64,000 bases of DNA from Photobacterium atrarenae (GTDB lineage: Bacteria > Pseudomonadota > Gammaproteobacteria > Enterobacterales > Vibrionaceae): assembly GCF_024380015.1 (NCBI RefSeq), contig NZ_CP101508.1, positions 868,001 through 932,000 on the forward strand. Direction: 5' to 3'. The notes beneath the pieces are model-generated. The model was not told where the DNA came from and did not search any database. It saw only the letters and a program-made list of their open reading frames with translations. Shown here piece after piece: positions 3,165 to 50,535 of this stretch. The number at the start of each line of letters is the position of its first letter. Position 1 is the first letter of the stretch. The position numbers were made by a program, and so were the translations under genes.

Positions 3165-3704
3165 GTGCGCCGAGCATGGCGTTGTTCTAGGAGGTGAAAG
3201 TCCTCTACGGGCTCAGTCGAGCGAGAACCGTTAGCCTATGCAAGGGTGCCCACCGTGAGGTGGGATCTGAAGGAAGCAAACGGCAAAACTTGGGTGTGAC
3301 GAACAGAAACCTGATAGTAGGCCAGTACAACTTGGGTAACCTAGCAATATATAGAACAGCCCAATGCCTCGACGGGAAGTGTGTACGGGTAAATCAGGCA
3401 CAGCCAAGGGAAAGAACAACGTCTTACCTCGGGAGATCTTACGACCTGTCTCGGATGAGACTAATACAACAGTGATGTTGTGTGACGGGTAATAAGAAGT
3501 CAGCAGAAGGCATAGTACCTTGGGGAAGTACAACCCAAGGGAAGGCCGGAACTGAATATATCAAGAAGCAGTCACTAGACACTCAATCATGTGGGGTCAT
3601 AGCAAGATGAACAACATCTCTACGTACTACTGGGCAACACCGCAAGTGACGCTCATGGCCACGAAGAATGACAAGCATGATCGGCGTAGACAGGAGGACG
3701 AGTC

Positions 3705-39972: not shown

Positions 39973-40755
39973 TTATTCGGTGCGTTTGAACTGGCAGAGG
40001 ATGAACATGGCGGCCGCGGCAACCACAACCGACGGGCCGGCCGGGGTGTCATATTGCCAGGACATCATCAGGCCCAGCAGGACGGCAATCGCACCAATTA
40101 CCGAAGCCAGTACGGCCATGCTCTCGGGGCTATGGGCAAAGCGCCGTGCTGTCGCAGCCGGGATCAGCAGGAGTGAGGTGATGATCAGGGCGCCGACAAA
40201 TTTCATCGCCACTGCAATGACCAGCCCGACCATCAGCATCAGCACCAGGCGCATCAAATCGACATTGACGCCTTCAACCTGGGCCAGCTCCTCGTTGATG
40301 GTCATCGACAGCATCGGCCGCCACAGGGTGAACAACAGGGCAAAAACCACCAATCCGCCACCGTAAATCCAGAATAGATCCTGAGTGGTGACGGCCAGCA
40401 AATCTCCGAACAGGTAGGCCATCAGGTCAATCCGGACATGATCCAGGAAGCTGATGGCGACCAGGCCGAGCGACAGAGCACTGTGGGCCAGAATCCCGAG
40501 CAGGGTATCGGTGGCGACATATTTTTGTTTTTGCAGACTGACGAGGATCACCGCCAGCGCAAGACAGCAGATCACCAGGGCCAGGTTAAGGTTGATATTG
40601 AACAAAAAACCCAGTGCAACCCCCAGTAGTGAGGCATGGGACAGGGTGTCACCGAAATAGGCCATCTTGCGCCAGACGACAAAAGAGCCCAGTGGCCCGG
40701 CCAGGGCGGCAATACCGATACCCGCAAGCAGGGCCGGCAGAATCAATTCAAGCAT
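39973..40755 (-). CDS. znuB: Zinc ABC transporter permease
   Basis: Membrane subunit of the ZnuABC high-affinity Zn2+ importer. 260 residues, the same as E. coli, with about eight hydrophobic helices. Family landmarks: [28 protein letters not shown] near the N-terminus and [21 protein letters not shown]. It follows znuC by nine bases on the minus strand and is therefore under the same Zur site. Confidence 0.95.
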
Positions 40756-40764
40756 GTGTTTTTC

Positions 40765-41523
40765 TTATGCCTCGTGGTGGTGCTGACATGGGCCTACCGG
40801 GCTGCCGGCAAGATCATGCTCATGATTGTGGTGGTGGTGGTAGAGGGCCAGTTGTTCGCTTTGCTGGGTGCCGAATAAAGCCACATAAGACGGGTGGCTG
40901 GTGATCGTCTCCGGTGCGCCGGAGCAGCAGACATGATGGTGCAGGCAGATCACGTGGTCCGTTTTCGCCATCACCAGGTGCAAGTCGTGCGATACCATCA
41001 GGATGGCACAGTTGAGTTTATCGCGCAGAGATTGGATCAGGCTGTAGAGCTCTAACTGGCCGTTGACATCCACCCCCTGGACCGGCTCATCCAGCACTAG
41101 TAAATCCGGGTGTTGCAGTAAGGCGCGGGCCAAGAGGACTCGCTGGGCTTCCCCGCCGGAGAGGGCGTGCATATCGCTGTGATACAAGTGCAGGCCACCG
41201 ACCATGGTGAGTGCTTCCTGGATCTCATTGGGTTTATAGCGGCCGGCCAGACGCATGAAACGGTCAACGGTTAGTGGTAATGAAGCATTGAGCTGGAGCT
41301 TTTGCGGCACATAACCGATCCGCAGTCCCTTTGCCCGGATCACCTGGCCGCTGCTCGGTTTGCGCAGCCCGGTGATCACTTTGACCAGGGTCGACTTACC
41401 GGCACCGTTGGGACCTATCAGGGTCGTGATCTGACCGCGGTCCAGCTTGAAAGAAACTTGATCGAGTACGTGCCGCTCCGCAAAGGTCACGGTAACCGTC
41501 TGTAATTCAACTAAGGTTGTCAT
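40765..41523 (-). CDS. znuC: Zinc ABC transporter ATP-binding protein
   Basis: Energises ZnuB. 252 residues from the ATG at 41523. The open frame runs upstream to 41706 through the Zur site and is not coding there. Walker [13 protein letters not shown] signature LSGGEAQRV, Walker B LLVLDEP, and the switch His in MVSHDLHLV. The C-terminal tail is unusually rich in histidine ([11 protein letters not shown] and CQHHHEA), likely to bind zinc. No clear ribosome-binding site precedes the ATG. Confidence 0.95.
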
Positions 41524-41551
41524 AAAAAGTGCGTCAGGGAATTGCCAAAAC

Positions 41552-41574
41552 GAGATGTTATAATATAACATCTT
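41552..41574. promoter_or_regulatory. Zur box between znuCB and znuA
   Basis: A perfect inverted repeat, AGATGTTATA on each side of a central A-T position (41553-41573). It matches the gammaproteobacterial Zur operator GAAATGTTATANTATAACATTTC almost throughout. It lies in the 91-base gap between the two divergent starts and can repress both transcripts when zinc is plentiful. Confidence 0.9.
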
Positions 41575-41614
41575 TAGTCTGAACTTGTAATCAATAATAG
41601 CTTTGGAAAATATT

Positions 41615-42508
41615 ATGCGCCGTTTTTTTGCTTGTTGCAGCTTTCTTGTGTTGCTCTTTTCGCCGTCTCTTCTGGCGAAAGAGCTCAAAGTGGTCACTAC
41701 CGTCAAGCCGCTGGGGCTGATCGTGCAGGCATTGACCGATGGTGCGGCGCATAATGATATTTTGCTGCCGCCGGGGACATCGCCACATGATTATGCGCTG
41801 CGCCCGTCTGATATGAAAAAGCTCAATGATGCCGATCTGGTGATCTGGGTGGGCCCGGAACTGGAAACATTCCTGGTCAAAGTTTTGGCGGAAAAGGAAA
41901 ATAGTCTAATGCTGACGGCTCAAAAAACGATTGAGCTGCGCCATTATGCGCATGAAGGTGAAGTGAGTCACGGTGATCATACGCATAGCCACGACGGTGT
42001 TGATCCGCATTTGTGGCTAGGGCCAACCCAGGCAATTCAGGCAGCAAACGTCATTTCTGAGCAGCTTATCAACATCGACCCATTGAATAAAAAGGTCTAT
42101 GAAGATAACCTTTCGCAGTTCGTCGCCGAGGTGGAGCAAACCATTGAGGCGCTGGCCCAGCAACTCAAGCCGTTGGCTGATCGTGGCTACTATGTGTTTC
42201 ACGATGCCTATGGCTATTTTGAGCAGACATTTGCACTGAACAAGCTGGGGCATTTCACCGTGAATCCTGATCGCCGTCCGGGCGCCAAAACCCTGGTGTC
42301 TATTCGTCGTGCGCTCAAAGCGGAAGCGGCGGTCTGTGTGTTCAGCGAACCGCAATTCTCGCCAGCAGTGGTGAAAAGTGTGGTCAGGGGCACCAAGGTT
42401 AATATCAGCACCCTGGATCCGATGGCAACGGAGATTGCCGAAGGTAAACAGGGATATGTCCAGTTCTTAGCGGGATTAGGGCAGAGTTTTACCAATTGTC
42501 TTAAATAA
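41615..42508 (+). CDS. znuA: Periplasmic zinc-binding protein
   Basis: Captures Zn2+ in the periplasm for ZnuBC. 297 residues from the ATG at 41615 (a TTG twelve bases earlier is in frame but less likely). Signal peptide [21 protein letters not shown]. Metal ligands: His in [15 protein letters not shown], His in DPHLWLGP, and His in [12 protein letters not shown]. The charged flexible loop is short ([16 protein letters not shown]). mepM follows after two bases. Confidence 0.95.
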
Positions 42509-42510
42509 TA

Positions 42511-43911
42511 ATGAAAATACTCAGGGCGACAGCCTTCACGATAAAAAAGTTACCTCGCCAGCACCGGATTGCGCTTTTTTCGACCTCTGCCATTGTGGTG
42601 GCACTGACCGTTTGGCAACCAACTTCGCCGTTGAAGCCGACGGCAACCGGGCAGCGAACATCGGTTGAGATTCCGCTGGGGGCGCTGGATGTTTTGTCCA
42701 AGCAGCGCCACCAGGAAACATCGGTCACCCTGGATGAACCAGAGCCGCTGATTGAGGAGAACAGTGAGCCGCTTGGTGCTGTGCTGGATCCGACGGATCC
42801 GGAGTTTTTGGCGCCAAAAGATGAGCTAGAGCAGCAACTGGCACAAGTGACGGATGTTGCCCACCAACATAAGGTGGAACCGGGGGAAACGCTGGGCGCA
42901 GTGTTTTCTCAATACGGCCTGCCGTTGGCGGATATGTACCGCTTGATTGAGGTGAATCGTTCGATTCAGAACCTCCGTGTCGGCCAGCAGCTAGAATGGT
43001 CGGTTGATGATGAAGGCCGGGTCAAAGAATTCAGCATCAGGCGCAGCGCCAAAATCATCGATACCTTCACCCTGACGGCCAAGGGTTATCAATTTAAGCA
43101 ACTCGAAGAGAGTGGTGAGCTTAAGCCGGTGGTTCTTACCGGGCGTATTTCCGGCAGCTTTTATCAGTCGGCCCGTGCCGCAGGGCTGACCCCCAACCAA
43201 ATCCAAACGCTGGTTCAGGCCCTGCAGTGGCGGTTTGATTTTGGCCGGGAGGCTCGAAAAGGTGATCGCTTTGCGGTGACGGTCGAGCGGGAATTTATTG
43301 ATGGTAAAGCCGTGACGCGCGGGGACGTGAAGGCGCTTTATTATATCAGTGGCCGCCGGGAAGTATTTATCATGCGCCATGAGGATGGCAATTTTTATGA
43401 TCAGGAAGGGCGGAGCCTGAACCGGGCGCTGCGTCGTTATCCGCTGGCAAAGCGCTATCGCATCAGCTCCTCTTTTAATCCGCAGCGTAAACACCCGATC
43501 ACCAAACGAATTTCACCGCATAACGGGACTGATTTTGCCACCCCGATCGGGACGCCAGTCCTGGCAGCGGGTGATGGCGTGGTGGTCAAGGCCCGCAGGC
43601 ACCGACTGGCCGGTAATTATGTGGTGATTAAGCATGGCCGCGAATACATGACCCGGTACCTTCATTTGCACCGGTTGTTAGTGAAGGTCGGCGATAAGGT
43701 GACCATGGGCCAGCGGATTGCGCTGAGTGGCAATACCGGCCGCTCAACCGGCCCGCATTTACACTATGAGCTGATTAAAAATAACCGGGCGGTGAATGCG
43801 ATGAAAGTGCCTTTGCCTCAGGCGGCGCCGGTTCCTTCAGCAGCCCGCAGTCGATTCGTCCAGAATGCAAATGGCGAACGACAGAAACTTCTGGCAGTGA
43901 TGCCGGGTTGA
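42511..43911 (+). CDS. mepM: Murein DD-endopeptidase, M23 family, MepM-like
   Basis: Cuts peptide cross-links in peptidoglycan to allow wall growth. 466 residues (E. coli MepM about 440). One N-terminal membrane segment (IALFSTSAIVVALTVW). A LysM/OapA-like region around residues 120-165 contains HKVEPGETLGAVFSQYG. The C-terminal M23 domain has zinc ligands in HNGTDFATPIG and in GPHLHYEL, plus HLHR. It starts two bases after the znuA stop, so it probably reads from the Zur-controlled promoter. A terminator follows. Confidence 0.93.
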   Translation: MKILRATAFTIKKLPRQHRIALFSTSAIVVALTVWQPTSPLKPTATGQRTSVEIPLGALDVLSKQRHQETSVTLDEPEPLIEENSEPLGAVLDPTDPEFLAPKDELEQQLAQVTDVAHQHKVEPGETLGAVFSQYGLPLADMYRLIEVNRSIQNLRVGQQLEWSVDDEGRVKEFSIRRSAKIIDTFTLTAKGYQFKQLEESGELKPVVLTGRISGSFYQSARAAGLTPNQIQTLVQALQWRFDFGREARKGDRFAVTVEREFIDGKAVTRGDVKALYYISGRREVFIMRHEDGNFYDQEGRSLNRALRRYPLAKRYRISSSFNPQRKHPITKRISPHNGTDFATPIGTPVLAAGDGVVVKARRHRLAGNYVVIKHGREYMTRYLHLHRLLVKVGDKVTMGQRIALSGNTGRSTGPHLHYELIKNNRAVNAMKVPLPQAAPVPSAARSRFVQNANGERQKLLAVMPG

Positions 43912-44046: not shown

Positions 44047-47000
44047 ATGGTAAACATCCTGGCTGTTTTGTGGCTCCTGTTGTCCGTGCTGTGGCAGAGT
44101 AGTGTTGCCCTGGCTGAAACGAACACGGAGCATGTTTTTTATCCGCTGCCTTATCAGGAAAGCGGCAGCTTTGTGACGCCGGTGAAAATGTTCAATAACC
44201 CGGCTGGTGGCGTGTGGATCCTGGATGCGCGCGGCGAGCTGCTGTTCTATGACGGCCGGAAGCTGAATCATGCCACAGATACCACCGGCCAGCCGATCGC
44301 CGGGGTGCAGGATGCCGTGATGATCGCACAGACACTGTGGCTGGTGAAAGACGGGGCCGGGTATGCTTATTCACCAGCAACGCTGAAATTGCGCCACTTG
44401 CCGCTGACTCAGACTAATCTGTTGTTTGTCGAGAGCCAGGATCAGACAGCCTGGTTTGCGGACGCCGAAGGCTTGTATGCGTTTCGTCACCCGGGGACGC
44501 AGCCAGCATTTTATCCGTTTCCGAAAATTGGCACGATCACCGGACTCTACGGGACGGCGAAGTCACTGTTCATTGCCGGCGAGAAAGGGGCCTATGAGTT
44601 CACGGAACGTCAGTTTTCAGACACCCTGTTATATCCGGAGCAGAGGGTTACTGCGGTATTTCTCGATAGTCAGCAGCAGCTTTGGTTTGGTACCCAGCGG
44701 GGCTTGTATCAATCGCGCAGCAGCAATGCTGAGCAGTCCCGGCAACAGATCAGGCTGGATCGCCAGCCCATCTCTGCGATCAGCGAGACCCGTGCAGGGC
44801 TGTGGGTTGGGACGCTGGACGGCCTTCGATTATTGAATCTACAGGGGCGCGAACTCAATCATTTCAGAGCCCTGAGCCGGGATTTGATGTCACTCCATGG
44901 CAATCATATTACGGCGTTGCTGGCTAGCAGCCACAATGGTCTGTGGGTAGGAACGAACCAGGGACTTAACTTTTCATCGTCGAAGGCCGAAGTGTTCAAG
45001 ATAAGACCATACGGCGTCGGACCGCATGCTCTTCCCGCCAGTCAAATCAATGATATGGTGGAGCTGGCAGATGGCACGATCTGGCTCGCCAGCGATAACG
45101 GATTGATCGTGCTCAATGAGCGGTTGGAGGAGAGACGTCATTTACCTCAGCTCGGCGCGATCCAACATATGGCGTACCGGGACGGGACCATGTGGCTGGC
45201 CGCCGGGAGCGAGTTACTGGCGTACTCCGTCGCTACGCATACCTGGTCATCCATGCCTTTGCCGTCAAATGTGCAGCCAGGCGGGATCACCAATTTGATG
45301 GTGGATCATTTTAACTCGGTGTGGATTGGAAAACAGTCGCATTTGTACCGCTACTGGACGGACACCGGAGAAGTCAATGCATTTGGTAACCACTGGATTC
45401 AAGCTCCCTACGGCAGTGAGCTGATTACCACCCTGTTTGAAGATCAGCACAAGCAAGTGTGGGTCGGGACAGATTATGCGCTCTATCAGTTTGATGCTGG
45501 TCGATTACAAGTGGTGGCGCAGACCAAGGCCCAAGGCGGGGTGATTGAACTGTTTGAAGATAAGCTGGCCCGGCTCTGGGTGCTCAATAACCAGAGCTTG
45601 CAATATGTAAAAAGTCGCCAGCCGTTCTCCCTGCAAGCGGCTCAGTTCAATGGCCAGCATGCTCGCCTGTATTGTATGACGGGGGGAACAGGCGGCAATT
45701 GGATTGTATCGAGTCAGGGGATCATCTCAGTTGCTTATACCGGGGCGCTGTTGCAGCACCTGACACCGCCGGTTGGCCTGAACAGCACTGAATTTTATAT
45801 TCCGACCTGCCAGCGATTGCGCTCGGGTGCTTTGCTGATCGGGGGACGAAACGGGCTCATGAAGGTTGAGCCGGGCAAATTGCTCGACGCAGGCCGAAAG
45901 CTCATCTCGGTCATCATGAGTGAGGTTTATATTGATCATCAGCTCGTTCGGCTGGGCGGAGCGGTGGAGCCGGCACTGGAGATACCCAAGGGGGCTTCTT
46001 TGAGTATTCAGGTCGGGGTTTTGCCGTTCTCTGGTATGCGCCAGCTGCAATATCGCCTGCTGGGAAACGAGGCAAGTGCCTGGCAGGCGTTTCACGAGCC
46101 GATGCTTCATTTTGAGAACATGGCGGTGGGGCATTACCAGCTCCAGATCCGTCTGGCCGGCACGGGGGCATCCACGGCTGTCATGGCGCAAATGCCAATT
46201 CAAGTGCGCCCGCCCTGGTATATCTCGCCGCTCATGGCTTCCCTGGGGGTTGGAGGGGCATTATTGCTGATCCTGGGTTTGACTCTCTGGCGAGTGTGGG
46301 TCAAACAACAGGAGCAACTGGCTGTGCAGCAAGCGGTGTTTCGAAATACCGCCAAGAATGCACTGGAGAAAAAGCACTTATATGCCAGCAACCTGCATTT
46401 AAAGCAGGTGCTGCAGATGCGCCGGAATTTCATGGCTCAGTTGCACCAGGAATTGACTACACCACTCACGCTGATTTTGGATAATATGTCGCAACTACAG
46501 GCTAGCCAATCGCCGGAAGGCGTGCAATCGCTGAAAGTGGCGACACAGCGGGTAGAACATTCGATGCATTTGATCGAGGAATTGCTCAAACATGATAGTA
46601 AGGTTCTGGTGGCGCCAGAGCGCGCTTGCGTTCAGTTAGTTGCACCAGTCGTCAAAGCATGCTGTATGAGCTGGCAAGGTGAAGCCGAACGCAAGGAAAT
46701 CGTGTTGTCGCTGGAAGATGAGGCCTGGGGAGCCAGTGTCAAGGTCGCGCCGTATCACCTTGATATCATGTTGGGGAACTTACTCTCCAACGCACTCAAA
46801 TACACCCCGCGACAGGGCACGGTCAGTGTGGTCGTTAAAACTCGGGGACAGCATCTGCTCCTGTCGGTGAGCGACACCGGGAGCGGGATGTCGAAAACAC
46901 TCAAAGAGCAAGTCTTCGACAGCGAGCGCCAAGTCACGGGCTCGGGCCATCAGACTACAGCGGAGGATGACGCCGGCTTTGGGCTAGGGCTCTGTACGGT

Positions 47001-47562
47001 GAAGCAGCTGGCGGAATCCTATGGCGGAGAAGTATCCGTGGTGAGCTATGAAGGGGTCGGCAGCGAATTTATGTTCAGTCTGCCGCTCTATCGTCAGACG
47101 TCGGATAGCCAGGATCCGGATCGCCAGGAGATGCGACCCGCGCAGACAGCTTTCCCGATGGCAGGGGTGAAGGAAAGTGCCCTTCAGATCTTAATTGTGT
47201 CATCAGAGCCTGAGATTGTTGCCTGTTTAACAGCGTTGTTGGAGGCTTATCATTGCCTGGTGGCCCATGATGGTTATGAAGCGCTGATTCTGGCGAAGGA
47301 CCACCATCCTCAACTGGTGATTTGCGATCAGGATCTGCCAGGATTATACGGCAGCGTTGTCTGGCATCGATTGTCACAGGAAATACCTGAGCTTGACTCT
47401 CAGTTTATGTTGCTGGTGGATCGGGCTGAACTGTCGTCATATGAGTATTTAACCCATCAACGTCCAGCGAATTCCCGTTATTGTGAAGTGGAAAAGCCCT
47501 TGGATCCCGTCGCGATTCTGCGAAAGGTTGAGCAATTACTGCCCTCTGAACTGCTTTATTAA
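44047..47562 (+). CDS. Two-component-propeller hybrid sensor with degenerate H-box and receiver
   Basis: 1171 residues from the ATG at 44047 (a TTG at 44023 adds eight residues and a positive charge; either may be used). Signal peptide to about 23; periplasmic beta-propeller of regulator-propeller repeats to about 630 (LWFGTQRGLYQS, LWVGTNQGLNFS, VWVGTDYALYQF); a Y_Y_Y-type domain; a membrane helix near 729-750; HisKA near 785-850. The H-box reads FMAQLHQELTTPLT, with Gln801 where the phospho-His belongs and His800 one place early. The ATPase domain looks intact (Asn915, DTGSGM, GFGLGLCTV). The terminal receiver has Asp1094 and Lys1150, but Ser1052-Ser1053 replace the acidic pair. No AraC-type output domain. 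The ligand is unknown. Confidence 0.85.
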   Translation: MVNILAVLWLLLSVLWQSSVALAETNTEHVFYPLPYQESGSFVTPVKMFNNPAGGVWILDARGELLFYDGRKLNHATDTTGQPIAGVQDAVMIAQTLWLVKDGAGYAYSPATLKLRHLPLTQTNLLFVESQDQTAWFADAEGLYAFRHPGTQPAFYPFPKIGTITGLYGTAKSLFIAGEKGAYEFTERQFSDTLLYPEQRVTAVFLDSQQQLWFGTQRGLYQSRSSNAEQSRQQIRLDRQPISAISETRAGLWVGTLDGLRLLNLQGRELNHFRALSRDLMSLHGNHITALLASSHNGLWVGTNQGLNFSSSKAEVFKIRPYGVGPHALPASQINDMVELADGTIWLASDNGLIVLNERLEERRHLPQLGAIQHMAYRDGTMWLAAGSELLAYSVATHTWSSMPLPSNVQPGGITNLMVDHFNSVWIGKQSHLYRYWTDTGEVNAFGNHWIQAPYGSELITTLFEDQHKQVWVGTDYALYQFDAGRLQVVAQTKAQGGVIELFEDKLARLWVLNNQSLQYVKSRQPFSLQAAQFNGQHARLYCMTGGTGGNWIVSSQGIISVAYTGALLQHLTPPVGLNSTEFYIPTCQRLRSGALLIGGRNGLMKVEPGKLLDAGRKLISVIMSEVYIDHQLVRLGGAVEPALEIPKGASLSIQVGVLPFSGMRQLQYRLLGNEASAWQAFHEPMLHFENMAVGHYQLQIRLAGTGASTAVMAQMPIQVRPPWYISPLMASLGVGGALLLILGLTLWRVWVKQQEQLAVQQAVFRNTAKNALEKKHLYASNLHLKQVLQMRRNFMAQLHQELTTPLTLILDNMSQLQASQSPEGVQSLKVATQRVEHSMHLIEELLKHDSKVLVAPERACVQLVAPVVKACCMSWQGEAERKEIVLSLEDEAWGASVKVAPYHLDIMLGNLLSNALKYTPRQGTVSVVVKTRGQHLLLSVSDTGSGMSKTLKEQVFDSERQVTGSGHQTTAEDDAGFGLGLCTVKQLAESYGGEVSVVSYEGVGSEFMFSLPLYRQTSDSQDPDRQEMRPAQTAFPMAGVKESALQILIVSSEPEIVACLTALLEAYHCLVAHDGYEALILAKDHHPQLVICDQDLPGLYGSVVWHRLSQEIPELDSQFMLLVDRAELSSYEYLTHQRPANSRYCEVEKPLDPVAILRKVEQLLPSELLY

Positions 47563-47706
47563 CAACGCGCGACCTTTGCGGTCGTCAGTTCATTTTCTTC
47601 TTTATGATTCCTCCCGATGCGTGACGTGCCTGCTTGATCGCGGGCTAGCTTGGTTTGTCTAATGGCCTATAAAAAAAGTGGTTATCGAGGGTGCCTTGAT
47701 GATTTC

Positions 47707-47720
47707 TTGACATAAAACAA
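47707..47720. promoter_or_regulatory. Candidate FNR site upstream of feoA
   Basis: TTGAC-ATAA-AACAA matches TTGAT-N4-ATCAA at eight of ten positions. It lies about 80 bases before feoA. Anaerobic activation of feo by FNR is known in E. coli; here it is inferred from the site alone. Upstream, at 47566-47595, gcgacc/ggtcgt could be a weak terminator for the sensor gene. Confidence 0.45.
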
Positions 47721-47759
47721 AGCTCAAAGTGTTTCAGGCTGTAAAATCGCAACCAGTAA

Positions 47760-47774
47760 TGAAAACAATTATCA
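47760..47774. promoter_or_regulatory. Candidate Fur box upstream of feoA
   Basis: TGAAAACAATTATCA matches the 7-1-7 Fur motif TGATAAT-N-ATTATCA at twelve of fourteen positions, with a perfect right half. It lies 19-33 bases before the feoA start and is well placed to block the promoter or initiation. Confidence 0.65.
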
Positions 47775-47792
47775 ATAAGGTGTGGCGTAAAG

Positions 47793-48023
47793 ATGAAACT
47801 GTCAGAGTTGTCATGCGGGACAAGCGGAAAAGTGACGGGCATGTCTGCCTTACCGGCGGCAACCCGAAAGAAATTGATGGTGATGGGGATGCTGCCGGAG
47901 ACGCCGGTGACAGTGGTACGTTTAGCGCCGTTGGGCGATCCACTTCAGGTTAGGGTGCGCGGGGTGGATATGGCCTTGCGTAAGCAGGTCGCCGCAGCGA
48001 TTGAAGTGGAGGTACAGTCATGA
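47793..48023 (+). CDS. feoA: Ferrous iron transport protein A
   Basis: Small SH3-like cytoplasmic partner of the FeoB iron channel. 76 residues. Family features: MKLSELSCGTSGKVTGM, the LMVMGMLPETPVTVVRLAPLGDP stretch seen in two parts, and VRVRGVDMALRKQVA. It overlaps feoB by four bases (ATGA). AAGG lies about ten bases before the ATG. Confidence 0.95.
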   Translation: MKLSELSCGTSGKVTGMSALPAATRKKLMVMGMLPETPVTVVRLAPLGDPLQVRVRGVDMALRKQVAAAIEVEVQS

Positions 48024-50296
48024 CTTACCACATCTTGACGGTGGGGAATCCCAATAGCGGCAAAACCACGTTATTTAATGGCCTGACCGGCGCGAAACAG
48101 CAAGTCGGCAACTGGGCCGGCGTGACGGTCGAGAAAAAAAACGGCACTTATACGTATGAGGATCAGCATTATACGCTGACTGATATGCCGGGAATTTATA
48201 ACCTCGATAGCGGGAATGATGCCAACAGCCCGGACGAAGTGATTGCGTGTCAGGCGCTGATGCAGCTCCCGGCCGATTTGATTCTCAATGTTGTGGATGC
48301 CACTTGCCTGGAACGCAGCCTTTATGCCACCTTGCAATTGCGAGAACTCGGTCGGCCGATGGTGGTGGTGCTGAACAAAATGGATGCGCTGGCACGCCAA
48401 CGTCAGTGTCTTGATCTGAAAGTGCTGGAAAAGGCACTGGGCTGCCCGGTGCTTGCCATTTCGGCCAATAACCAGGCACAGGTGAAATCCCTGAAAGCCG
48501 AGCTGCATCAGCAGCTTACACAAGGTCTTTCACTACAAGCCCTGACCTTGCACTATGGCGATGCGATGGAGCAGGCGGTGGGTCAGCTCACGCCGCTGTT
48601 CACTGAAGGGGTTGTCAATACCCGTGCGCAGGCCATTCGCCTGCTTGAGCAGGACGTTTTAGTGCTCAACAGTTTGCCATCGAGCGTTCGGGAGCAGGCC
48701 TGCAATGTTCGTCATTCGCTGCTGGCGGATATGGATATTGATGTCCAGATGGCGGATGTCCGATATAGCTTTTTACATCAGTTGTGTCAGCGCGTGCGTC
48801 GTCAGGAAGGCAAGATCAGTCGCCATTTAAGTGATCGGATTGATCAGGTTTTACTGCATCGCGCATTCGGGTTGCCGTTCTTTTTCATCGTGATGTACCT
48901 GATGTTCATGTTCTCGATTAATATCGGCAGCGCCTTTATTGATTTCTTTGATATCAGCGTCGGGGCGTTACTGGTCGATGGCGGCCATTACCTGCTGGAC
49001 GGACACCTGCCGGTCTGGCTGGTCACGATTATAGCTGACGGCATTGGTGGCGGGATCCAGACGGTTGCGACTTTTATTCCGGTGATTGCCTGCTTGTACC
49101 TGTTTATGGCGCTGCTGGAAAGCTCCGGTTACATGGCGCGGGCGGCGTTTGTGCTGGATAAGGTCATGCAGCAGGTGGGTCTGCCGGGCAAGGCATTTGT
49201 GCCTTTGGTGCTTGGCTTCGGTTGTAATGTGCCGGCGATCATGGCAACCCGGACCTTAGAGCAAGAGCGCGAGCGTAAACTGGCTGCGGCGATGACCCCC
49301 TTTATGTCCTGCGGTGCTCGCCTGCCGGTTTATGCCTTGTTTGCAGCCGCCTTCTTCCCGGAAAACGGCCAGAATGTGGTGTTTGGCCTGTACCTGCTGG
49401 GAATTGCGGCGGCTGTCCTGACCGGTTTGCTGTTGCGCTATACGTTGTATCCGGGCACCAGTAGCAGTTTCATTATGGAAATGCCGGACTACGAATTACC
49501 GACATTGCGAAATGTCGGGATCAAAACCTGGCAAAAGCTCAAGCGTTTTGTGCTGGGGGCGGGGAAAACCATCGTTGTGGTTGTTGCTTGTCTGAGTTTC
49601 TTTAACTCGCTCGGCGTGGATGGCACGTTCGGTAACGAGGATAGCGAAAACTCCGTATTGTCACGGGCGGCCCAGGTGGTGACCCCGGTGTTGGCACCGA
49701 TCGGAATTCAGGAAGACAACTGGCCGGCGACCGTCGGGATCATCACGGGTATTTTTGCCAAAGAAGCCGTCGTGGGTACTCTGAACAGCCTGTACGCGCC
49801 TTCCGCCGCGGAAGATGAGGCTGAATACGATTTGTTGGGCAGCTTGCAAGAAGCGGTGGCTTCTATTCCGGCAAACCTGGCCGATCTCAGCTACAGCGAC
49901 CCACTGGGGATTGAAGTGGGTGAGCTGACGGATCTGGATGTGGTTGCAGAGGCGCAGGAAGTCGATGCATCGGTGTTTGGTAACATCCAGGCACAATTTG
50001 TTAGTGGCTCTGCGGCCATGGCCTACCTGGTCTTCATTCTGCTTTACACGCCCTGTGTGGCCGCAATGGGGGCTTACGTGCGAGAGTTTGGTCAGAAGTT
50101 CTCGATCTTGATTGCCAGCTGGACCATGCTGTTGGCTTATACCTGTGCAACGCTCCTGTACCAGGTCGCCCACTTTACGGCGCATCCGGTGAGTAGTTTG
50201 CTGTGGATCGGCTTGTTTGCCGCAATCAATGCCGGGTTAGCCATTGCCTTTAAGCTTCAGGGACGGAAACAGCCACGGGAGATTGCCGTCGTATGA
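48020..50296 (+). CDS. feoB: Ferrous iron transporter B
   Basis: Inner-membrane Fe2+ transporter with an N-terminal G-protein domain. 758 residues. Nucleotide motifs: G1 VGNPNSGKTTLFNGL, G3 in the LTDMPGIYNL segment, and G4 VVLNKMDAL. A helical domain follows, then two Gate repeats with the conserved cysteines GFGCNVPAIMATRTLE and the second segment KEAVVGTLNSLYA. Eight or so membrane helices. It overlaps feoA and feoC by four bases each, so the three are translationally coupled. Confidence 0.97.
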   Translation: MTYHILTVGNPNSGKTTLFNGLTGAKQQVGNWAGVTVEKKNGTYTYEDQHYTLTDMPGIYNLDSGNDANSPDEVIACQALMQLPADLILNVVDATCLERSLYATLQLRELGRPMVVVLNKMDALARQRQCLDLKVLEKALGCPVLAISANNQAQVKSLKAELHQQLTQGLSLQALTLHYGDAMEQAVGQLTPLFTEGVVNTRAQAIRLLEQDVLVLNSLPSSVREQACNVRHSLLADMDIDVQMADVRYSFLHQLCQRVRRQEGKISRHLSDRIDQVLLHRAFGLPFFFIVMYLMFMFSINIGSAFIDFFDISVGALLVDGGHYLLDGHLPVWLVTIIADGIGGGIQTVATFIPVIACLYLFMALLESSGYMARAAFVLDKVMQQVGLPGKAFVPLVLGFGCNVPAIMATRTLEQERERKLAAAMTPFMSCGARLPVYALFAAAFFPENGQNVVFGLYLLGIAAAVLTGLLLRYTLYPGTSSSFIMEMPDYELPTLRNVGIKTWQKLKRFVLGAGKTIVVVVACLSFFNSLGVDGTFGNEDSENSVLSRAAQVVTPVLAPIGIQEDNWPATVGIITGIFAKEAVVGTLNSLYAPSAAEDEAEYDLLGSLQEAVASIPANLADLSYSDPLGIEVGELTDLDVVAEAQEVDASVFGNIQAQFVSGSAAMAYLVFILLYTPCVAAMGAYVREFGQKFSILIASWTMLLAYTCATLLYQVAHFTAHPVSSLLWIGLFAAINAGLAIAFKLQGRKQPREIAVV

Positions 50297-50535
50297 TTTT
50301 GCAACAGTTTAGGCAATACCTTGAAGCCCGTGGAAAAACGAGCCGGGCAGCGCTGGCGCAGCACTTCGGGATCAGTGAAGATGGCGTCGATGCGATGCTA
50401 GAGATCTGGGTGCAAAAAGGAAAACTCAGTAAGGAGCTGGCCGGCTGTGACGGTCAGCCCTGTTGCCGGGAAGCTTCTGAGGTCTGGTATCGCTGGTTGT
50501 CGCCCCACGAGCTGGCAATCACTGTGGTTCACTAG
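50293..50535 (+). CDS. feoC: Ferrous iron transport protein C
   Basis: 80 residues. A small winged-helix protein; in Klebsiella it protects FeoB and binds an Fe-S cluster. ILQQFRQYLEARGKTSRAALAQHFG and the helix ISEDGVDAMLEIWVQKGKL form the wing-helix. The cysteine loop is short: AGCDGQPCCREA with three Cys close together. The spacing differs from the four-Cys enterobacterial form, so cluster binding is uncertain. Last gene of feoABC. Confidence 0.88.
   Translation: MILQQFRQYLEARGKTSRAALAQHFGISEDGVDAMLEIWVQKGKLSKELAGCDGQPCCREASEVWYRWLSPHELAITVVH

Follow-up and report, generated by a model that had tools for sequence, protein, structure and literature searches.

The locus described here raises the question of how a membrane sensor laid out as a hybrid histidine kinase can signal, or whether it signals at all, when the histidine that should accept the phosphate is replaced by glutamine. 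The gene lies in a stretch of 64,000 nucleotides of Photobacterium atrarenae (contig NZ_CP101508.1), called the window throughout, and its features are collected in Table 1. The frame opens with ATG and holds no internal stop; the list of open reading frames puts the start of the same frame at an upstream TTG (44023). Codons 799–806 (TTG CAC CAG GAA TTG ACT ACA CCA) read LHQELTTP, and Gln801 aligns with the acceptor histidine in the LSHELRTPL motif of relatives. Among the 36 HisKA matches in this genome, the acceptor histidine is present in all of the other 35 (33 by pattern, 2 by eye). The initial annotation had described Gln801 preceded by His800 from unambiguous codons, intact ATPase boxes, a receiver with its Asp and Lys and with Ser-Ser at the acid pair, and an open frame of 1171 codons, and each of these observations was upheld by the codons, the alignment and the residues present: Asn915 (N-box), Asp943 (G1) and GFGLGL (G2) in the ATP site, and Ser1052-Ser1053, Asp1094 and Lys1150 in the receiver. 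That annotation did not mention Asp1125, which occupies the Thr/Ser switch position of the receiver, nor the C-terminal AraC domain and the adjoining tfoR of relatives, which are both absent here, nor the probable orthology with tfoS.

Table 1. Features of the locus in window coordinates (position 1 is the first nucleotide of the window).
Feature	Position	Strand	Remarks
Gene of this study, very probably orthologous to tfoS	44047..47562	+	1171 codons; propeller sensor, membrane helix, HisKA, HATPase, receiver; AraC domain absent
Predicted periplasmic propeller sensor, residues 27-725	44125..46221	+	
HisKA-like region, residues 791-847	46417..46587	+	
His800, -1 relative to the acceptor column	46444..46446	+	codon CAC
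Gln801, acceptor column	46447..46449	+	codon CAG
HATPase_c, residues 904-1015	46756..47091	+	N, G1 and G2 motifs intact
Receiver-like domain, residues 1047-1171	47185..47559	+	Ser1052-Ser1053, Asp1094, Asp1125, Lys1150
Upstream markers	39973..43911	znuB, znuC (-); znuA, mepM-like gene (+)	names assigned from sequence and locus
Gap to feoA, 230 bp	47563..47792	.	no AraC remnant, no tfoR
feoA	47793-48023	+	downstream locus marker
feoB	48020-50296	+	downstream locus marker
feoC	50293-50535	+	downstream locus marker

The domain assignments rest on Pfam, which found Reg_prop repeats and HATPase_c (77.2 bits), whilst Response_reg (residues 1048-1115, 27.1 bits) and HisKA (18.7 bits) fell below their cut-offs of 30.2 and 26.9, respectively, and no HTH match was returned for the protein. 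The low HisKA score is not peculiar to this protein, since some His-bearing relatives also score ∼18 bits. All NCBIfam matches of the protein were under their cut-offs, and a Reg_prop search of its own genome (0/1) is uninformative, having missed the window gene itself. An AlphaFold2 model (25-row alignment, mean pLDDT 76.2, pTM 0.55) shows a propeller, long helices, and HATPase and receiver folds; the DHp helices are of low confidence, and the model was therefore left aside for side-chain geometry. The nearest solved folds are those of HTCS sensors, BT4663 being the best, with ShkA and DivL among the matches for the core. Elsewhere in the window, two Rfam models of group II introns match at 3249-3547 (+), RF02001 with 125.8 bits and RF01998 with 68.8 bits.

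The surroundings of the gene are shared widely. At the 19 named loci, feoA comes next in 18 (it was not found in Vibrio sp. S9_S30), znuA precedes in 18 (V. hibernica being a partial contig) and the mepM-like gene is present in 14, and the same znu, gene, feo arrangement occurs at the genome loci among those listed. V. cholerae tfoS is reported as VC2080 (PMC12282291), feoA as VC2078 (PMC5816637), and TfoR as flanked by VC2078 and VC2080 (PMC8545128). The corresponding gap of relatives holds a conserved opposite-strand element with a terminator-like hairpin at its end, which Rfam identifies as the sRNA tfoR (RF02100, 79.9 bits), and the propeller profile finds the homologous propeller sensor expected of a tfoS orthologue. 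Given the znu, gene, feoABC order and the tfoR beside it in relatives, the window gene is very probably the tfoS orthologue. The tfoR element is convergent with the tfoS orthologue, on the opposite strand, at L022:10210-10317, L023:6573-6680, L026:7677-7784 and in the gaps of other relatives.

A search with the window protein gave 491 matches at E ≤ 1e-3, of which 120 were listed. The full protein occurs in 18 of the 52 genus genomes (E ≤ 1e-30) and, at E ≤ 1e-100, in 18 of the 329 family genomes, namely 17 of the genus and G086. A propeller-only profile matched 242 of the 329 Vibrionaceae genomes (E ≤ 1e-15), a count in which weak matches are included without individual inspection. Sensor, HisKA, HATPase, receiver and AraC lie in one chain, by sequence, in 12 of the 18 gene-bearing Photobacterium genomes, and two Vibrio sp. 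members have no HisKA or HATPase match. One Photobacterium orthologue (L038, in G018) carries the AraC domain after the membrane part and has no kinase match, as in Vibrio.

What the window protein has lost at its end is the AraC domain, which Pfam finds in 15 of the 18 gene-bearing genomes of the genus and which is absent from the window, TY1-4 and P. sanctipauli, and also from P0002, P0003 and P. chitinilyticum (whose named locus is not among the 52 genomes). The tree places three separate losses, in the Gln branch, in P. chitinilyticum and in P. sanctipauli; the rows nearest to the latter two (P0006 and P0010, respectively) keep the domain. The last ∼95 bp of the gap, on the feoA side, are conserved with the gaps of relatives. 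As a remnant of the HTH in the gap, the best tblastn candidate had an E value of 0.48 and was located elsewhere in the window, and as a displaced TfoS-type HTH gene, the best candidate in the genome reached 50.4 bits, whereas P. obscurum gives 264.2 and G011 gives 154.2; both were rejected.

The window holds no tfoR by Rfam or by R1, a model built from 11 gap elements, and neither RF02100 nor R1 has a match anywhere in the window genome. Matches of R1 on its 11 source elements are by construction, and RF02100 served as the independent check. RF02100 exceeded its cut-off in seven of the 52 genomes, always at the locus and always together with the gene and an AraC domain, and G018 (59.5 of 70) supplied an eighth strong tfoR. 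Strong tfoR is present in 8/18 gene-bearing vs 0/34 gene-less genomes (p 6e-5, with relatedness left uncorrected). Weak R1 matches were seen in the gene-less genomes G025 (35.5 bits) and G009, G024, G028 and G046 (17–21 bits), and RF02100 gave 22.7 bits in G002. The loss of tfoR is not unique to AraC-less forms, as 6 of 15 AraC-bearing genomes also lack it at the locus; among the seven AraC-bearing genomes without a strong tfoR, G045, G033 and G027 have only 15–16.5 bits there, G005, G011 and G013 show, among the matches listed, none at the locus and none elsewhere that exceeds the cut-off, and G023 has a weak locus match (R1, 30.1 bits; RF02100, 26.7 bits). Strong tfoR occurs in 0/4 AraC-less (window, G044, G035 and P. 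chitinilyticum) vs 8/15 AraC-bearing genomes (Fisher p 0.10), which is only suggestive of a tie between the two losses. Because tfoR begins ∼40–300 bp past the stop codon in Photobacterium relatives, a single deletion could have taken both.

Such an ancestral deletion is the starting point of the main rival explanation, in which a protein left without a job is slowly decaying, its acceptor and core drifting. It draws on the absence of the AraC domain and tfoR, and on a sensor-region tree (27 rows, P0012 being too short to include) in which the Gln branch, joined to its sister group at 100/98, stands on a long stem (0.71). It also draws on rates, as the window gene evolves faster than four neighbouring genes, which are tighter (dN/dS 0.058–0.117) than its own overall ratio of 0.148 against TY1-4. 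That same ratio, however, speaks against decay, as do its parts (sensor 0.141, HisKA 0.075, HATPase 0.158 and receiver 0.135, all < 0.16); a 21-codon linker gives 0.55, and one linker is saturated. Several control pairs were near dS saturation, and their ratios were left unused. The frame is, moreover, open, full-length and of the same end in all four members of the branch, and the ATP motifs are intact. The open frame noted initially is thus also a selected one.

Among hand-chosen pairs, 11 of the 12 taken from outside the branch show stronger conservation in the kinase core than in the propeller (odds ratio 1.68–3.28), the exception being P. lipolyticum with P. sagamiensis (0.84), whereas within the branch none of five does (0.57–0.84; the pairs overlap, and one of the five is significant alone). 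The branch core has lost its extra constraint whilst purifying selection persists, the constraint having shifted from core to sensor. The drop in all five pairs favours the relic, and it counts against the reading that we prefer, that of a relay-dead pseudokinase, since partial decay would give the same result. Taken together, we regard a decaying relic as a possible but less than probable account of this gene.

A second alternative is that His800 has taken over as acceptor in a protein that remains a kinase. The family alignment has 28 rows, V. cholerae TfoS having been left out, and 24 rows with a kinase module, of which 15 carry His at the acceptor, four Gln (the window, TY1-4, MCCC 1A19761 and metagenome P0002), three Ser (P. 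alginatilyticum, P. proteolyticum and P. sp. OFAV2-7) and two Asn (P. sp. N510-Z and P. aquae). In the sensor tree, Gln has one origin (100/100), Ser one and Asn two, making four losses of the acceptor histidine by parsimony; the well-supported branches alone require the His label to change three times or more, some long branches being unsure. LHQEL, and with it His800, is found in all four branch members (window, P0002, P0003 and TY1-4, which is L021/P0004), and this, together with the intact ATP motifs, is what can be said for His800. Position -1 is, however, variable across the family (Ser, Tyr, Phe or His) and is Tyr in the sister group of the Gln branch. Both Tyr to His (TAC to CAC) and His to Gln (CAC/CAT to CAG) are single-base steps, so the apparent movement of a histidine by one place needs just two ordinary substitutions; the shift proposed initially is not supported, given this variability and the change of the acceptor in relatives to Ser once and Asn twice. 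Adjacent residues of a helix lie ∼100 degrees apart, and His800 would thus sit on the wrong helix face and be poorly placed as a substitute. The receiver that would take its phosphate has no metal pocket. Phosphorylation through His800 is, on this evidence, very unlikely.

In the second DHp helix, His841 (46567-46569) is nearly invariant in kinase-bearing relatives, with Tyr in P. sp. N510-Z; as a possible other acceptor it counts against the pseudokinase reading.

Degeneration of the receiver is neither peculiar to this protein nor tied to the change of the histidine. The first metal-binding acid is missing in all 21 receiver-bearing rows, whether or not the acceptor histidine is there, so that degeneration of the receiver is wider than loss of the histidine. 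In those rows, and depending on the alignment, Glu occupies the second position in 5, 18 retain the phospho-Asp and 18 the Lys, and 4 have Thr or Ser as the switch residue. The receiver has been lost and the histidine and ATP motifs retained in P. lipolyticum (L027), P. sagamiensis (P0009) and P. sanctipauli (L028). The N-box Asn, G1 Asp and G2 motif are kept in all 24 kinase-bearing rows.

Orthologues with SHELRTP were expected at the outset to indicate a sequencing error or strain-specific decay, and SHELRTP does occur in other lineages, but the presence of LHQEL in two further proteins and in TY1-4, where the silent codon positions differ (TTA CAT CAG GAG), refutes an error and makes assembly artefact or single-strain decay negligible in likelihood, as a change shared by three further sequences of the branch is old and branch-specific.

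With Gln at the acceptor and a receiver without a metal pocket, the standard His-to-Asp relay is unavailable, and there is very probably no phosphotransfer via position 801. The reading that we consider the more probable is that the window protein is a relay-dead pseudokinase derived from TfoS which, if it works, signals by protein contact; whether that contact-based signalling is useful rather than a relic is a matter on which we are evenly divided. This reading builds on what is established at the level of sequence: orthology of the locus, altered residues, an AraC domain and a tfoR that are gone, and purifying selection that continues. Of the non-canonical or signalling-only sensor proposed in the initial annotation, the lack of a canonical acceptor stands and the signalling-only role is plausible. 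Within the genus, the protein is still laid out as a hybrid two-component system in one chain, in the order propeller, membrane helix, HisKA, HATPase, receiver, AraC. In the window branch, the sensor may still bind its ligand, which could be a chitin oligosaccharide, and the ATP site may still bind nucleotide; the signal would then pass by a change of shape to another membrane protein, for which ChiS is the leading candidate. A ChiS candidate is present in the window genome (1128 aa; HAMP, HisKA, HATPase and receiver), adjoining an SBP and oligopeptide-type ABC operon and resembling VC0622 and VC0620-0616; it was found in nine of nine genomes tested, the TY1-4 copy being 91% identical. The window genome also encodes two TfoX_N proteins. 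In V. cholerae, a ChiS-TfoS interaction is reported to support tfoR activation (PMC11856585).

The relatives with Ser or Asn at the acceptor (G001, G032, G042 and G049) keep both the AraC domain and tfoR, and a His-less protein can therefore coexist with the circuit. It is conceivable, though we hold it only tentatively and think it rather unlikely as a whole, that Photobacterium preserves stages on the way from a hybrid histidine kinase to the membrane transcription factor TfoS, with parallel acceptor losses under an intact AraC/tfoR circuit, and that in the window branch the sensor went on to become an accessory subunit, blind to DNA and dead as a relay, which might, for instance, modulate ChiS through direct, ATP-dependent contact. 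The matter bears on how TfoS couples chitin to DNA uptake in Vibrio. The Photobacterium orthologues suggest that the part of TfoS between the membrane and the DNA-binding end derives from a histidine kinase and receiver, and that the acceptor histidine was lost repeatedly whilst the motifs of the ATP site were retained; the claim that arises is that the signal is carried by nucleotide binding or a change of shape and not by phosphotransfer. The window branch is a naturally occurring example in which the sensor lacks both a DNA-binding domain and tfoR. That Photobacterium TfoS orthologues retain a hybrid-kinase module missing from Vibrio TfoS is possibly new, as the records listed from the literature searched, mostly open-access, describe no Photobacterium TfoS with a kinase module.

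Several known systems resemble the window protein in part. Like TfoS of Vibrio (VC2080, VP0854), the chitin-sensing transmembrane regulator that activates tfoR, described as a membrane protein with an HTCS-like periplasmic sensor and adjoining feoA (PMC12282291, PMC7564644, PMC11856585), it has such a sensor at the same locus. V. cholerae TfoS is, however, described as lacking two-component signature domains (PMC7564644), and Vibrio TfoS has a DNA-binding end, whereas the window protein retains kinase and receiver and has neither that end nor tfoR; with both the AraC domain and tfoR absent, it does not have the make-up of a working tfoR activator. ChiS of Vibrio is likewise a hybrid kinase in the membrane; it serves the chitin response, has a DNA-binding domain of its own (PMC8092284) and acts with TfoS (PMC11856585), but its sensor and DNA-binding domain are different and it is a separate gene, of which the window genome has the candidate described above. 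Bacteroides hybrid two-component systems, or HTCS (BT4663, BT4236), share the sensor fold and, with the AraC-bearing relatives, the whole domain order. The window protein has four of their five domains, lacking AraC, has no receiver pocket, and lies between zinc and iron uptake genes rather than in a polysaccharide locus. A Gln acceptor is already known in an HTCS, BT4236 (PMC11253607), and a survey proposes that hybrid transmembrane regulators may derive from two-component systems (PMC10269533). Histidine pseudokinases are also already known, namely DivL of Caulobacter, reported to have neither kinase nor phosphatase activity and to act by binding, and a ChrS variant (PMC4211667, PMC9491836). 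Compared with a canonical histidine kinase, the window protein has the N, G1 and G2 motifs and Gln801 in place of the acceptor histidine; it shares with DivL and the ChrS variant a replaced acceptor and a retained kinase fold, the make-up of a DivL-like pseudo-histidine kinase, but differs from DivL in that the acceptor there is Tyr and the sensor and partners are others.
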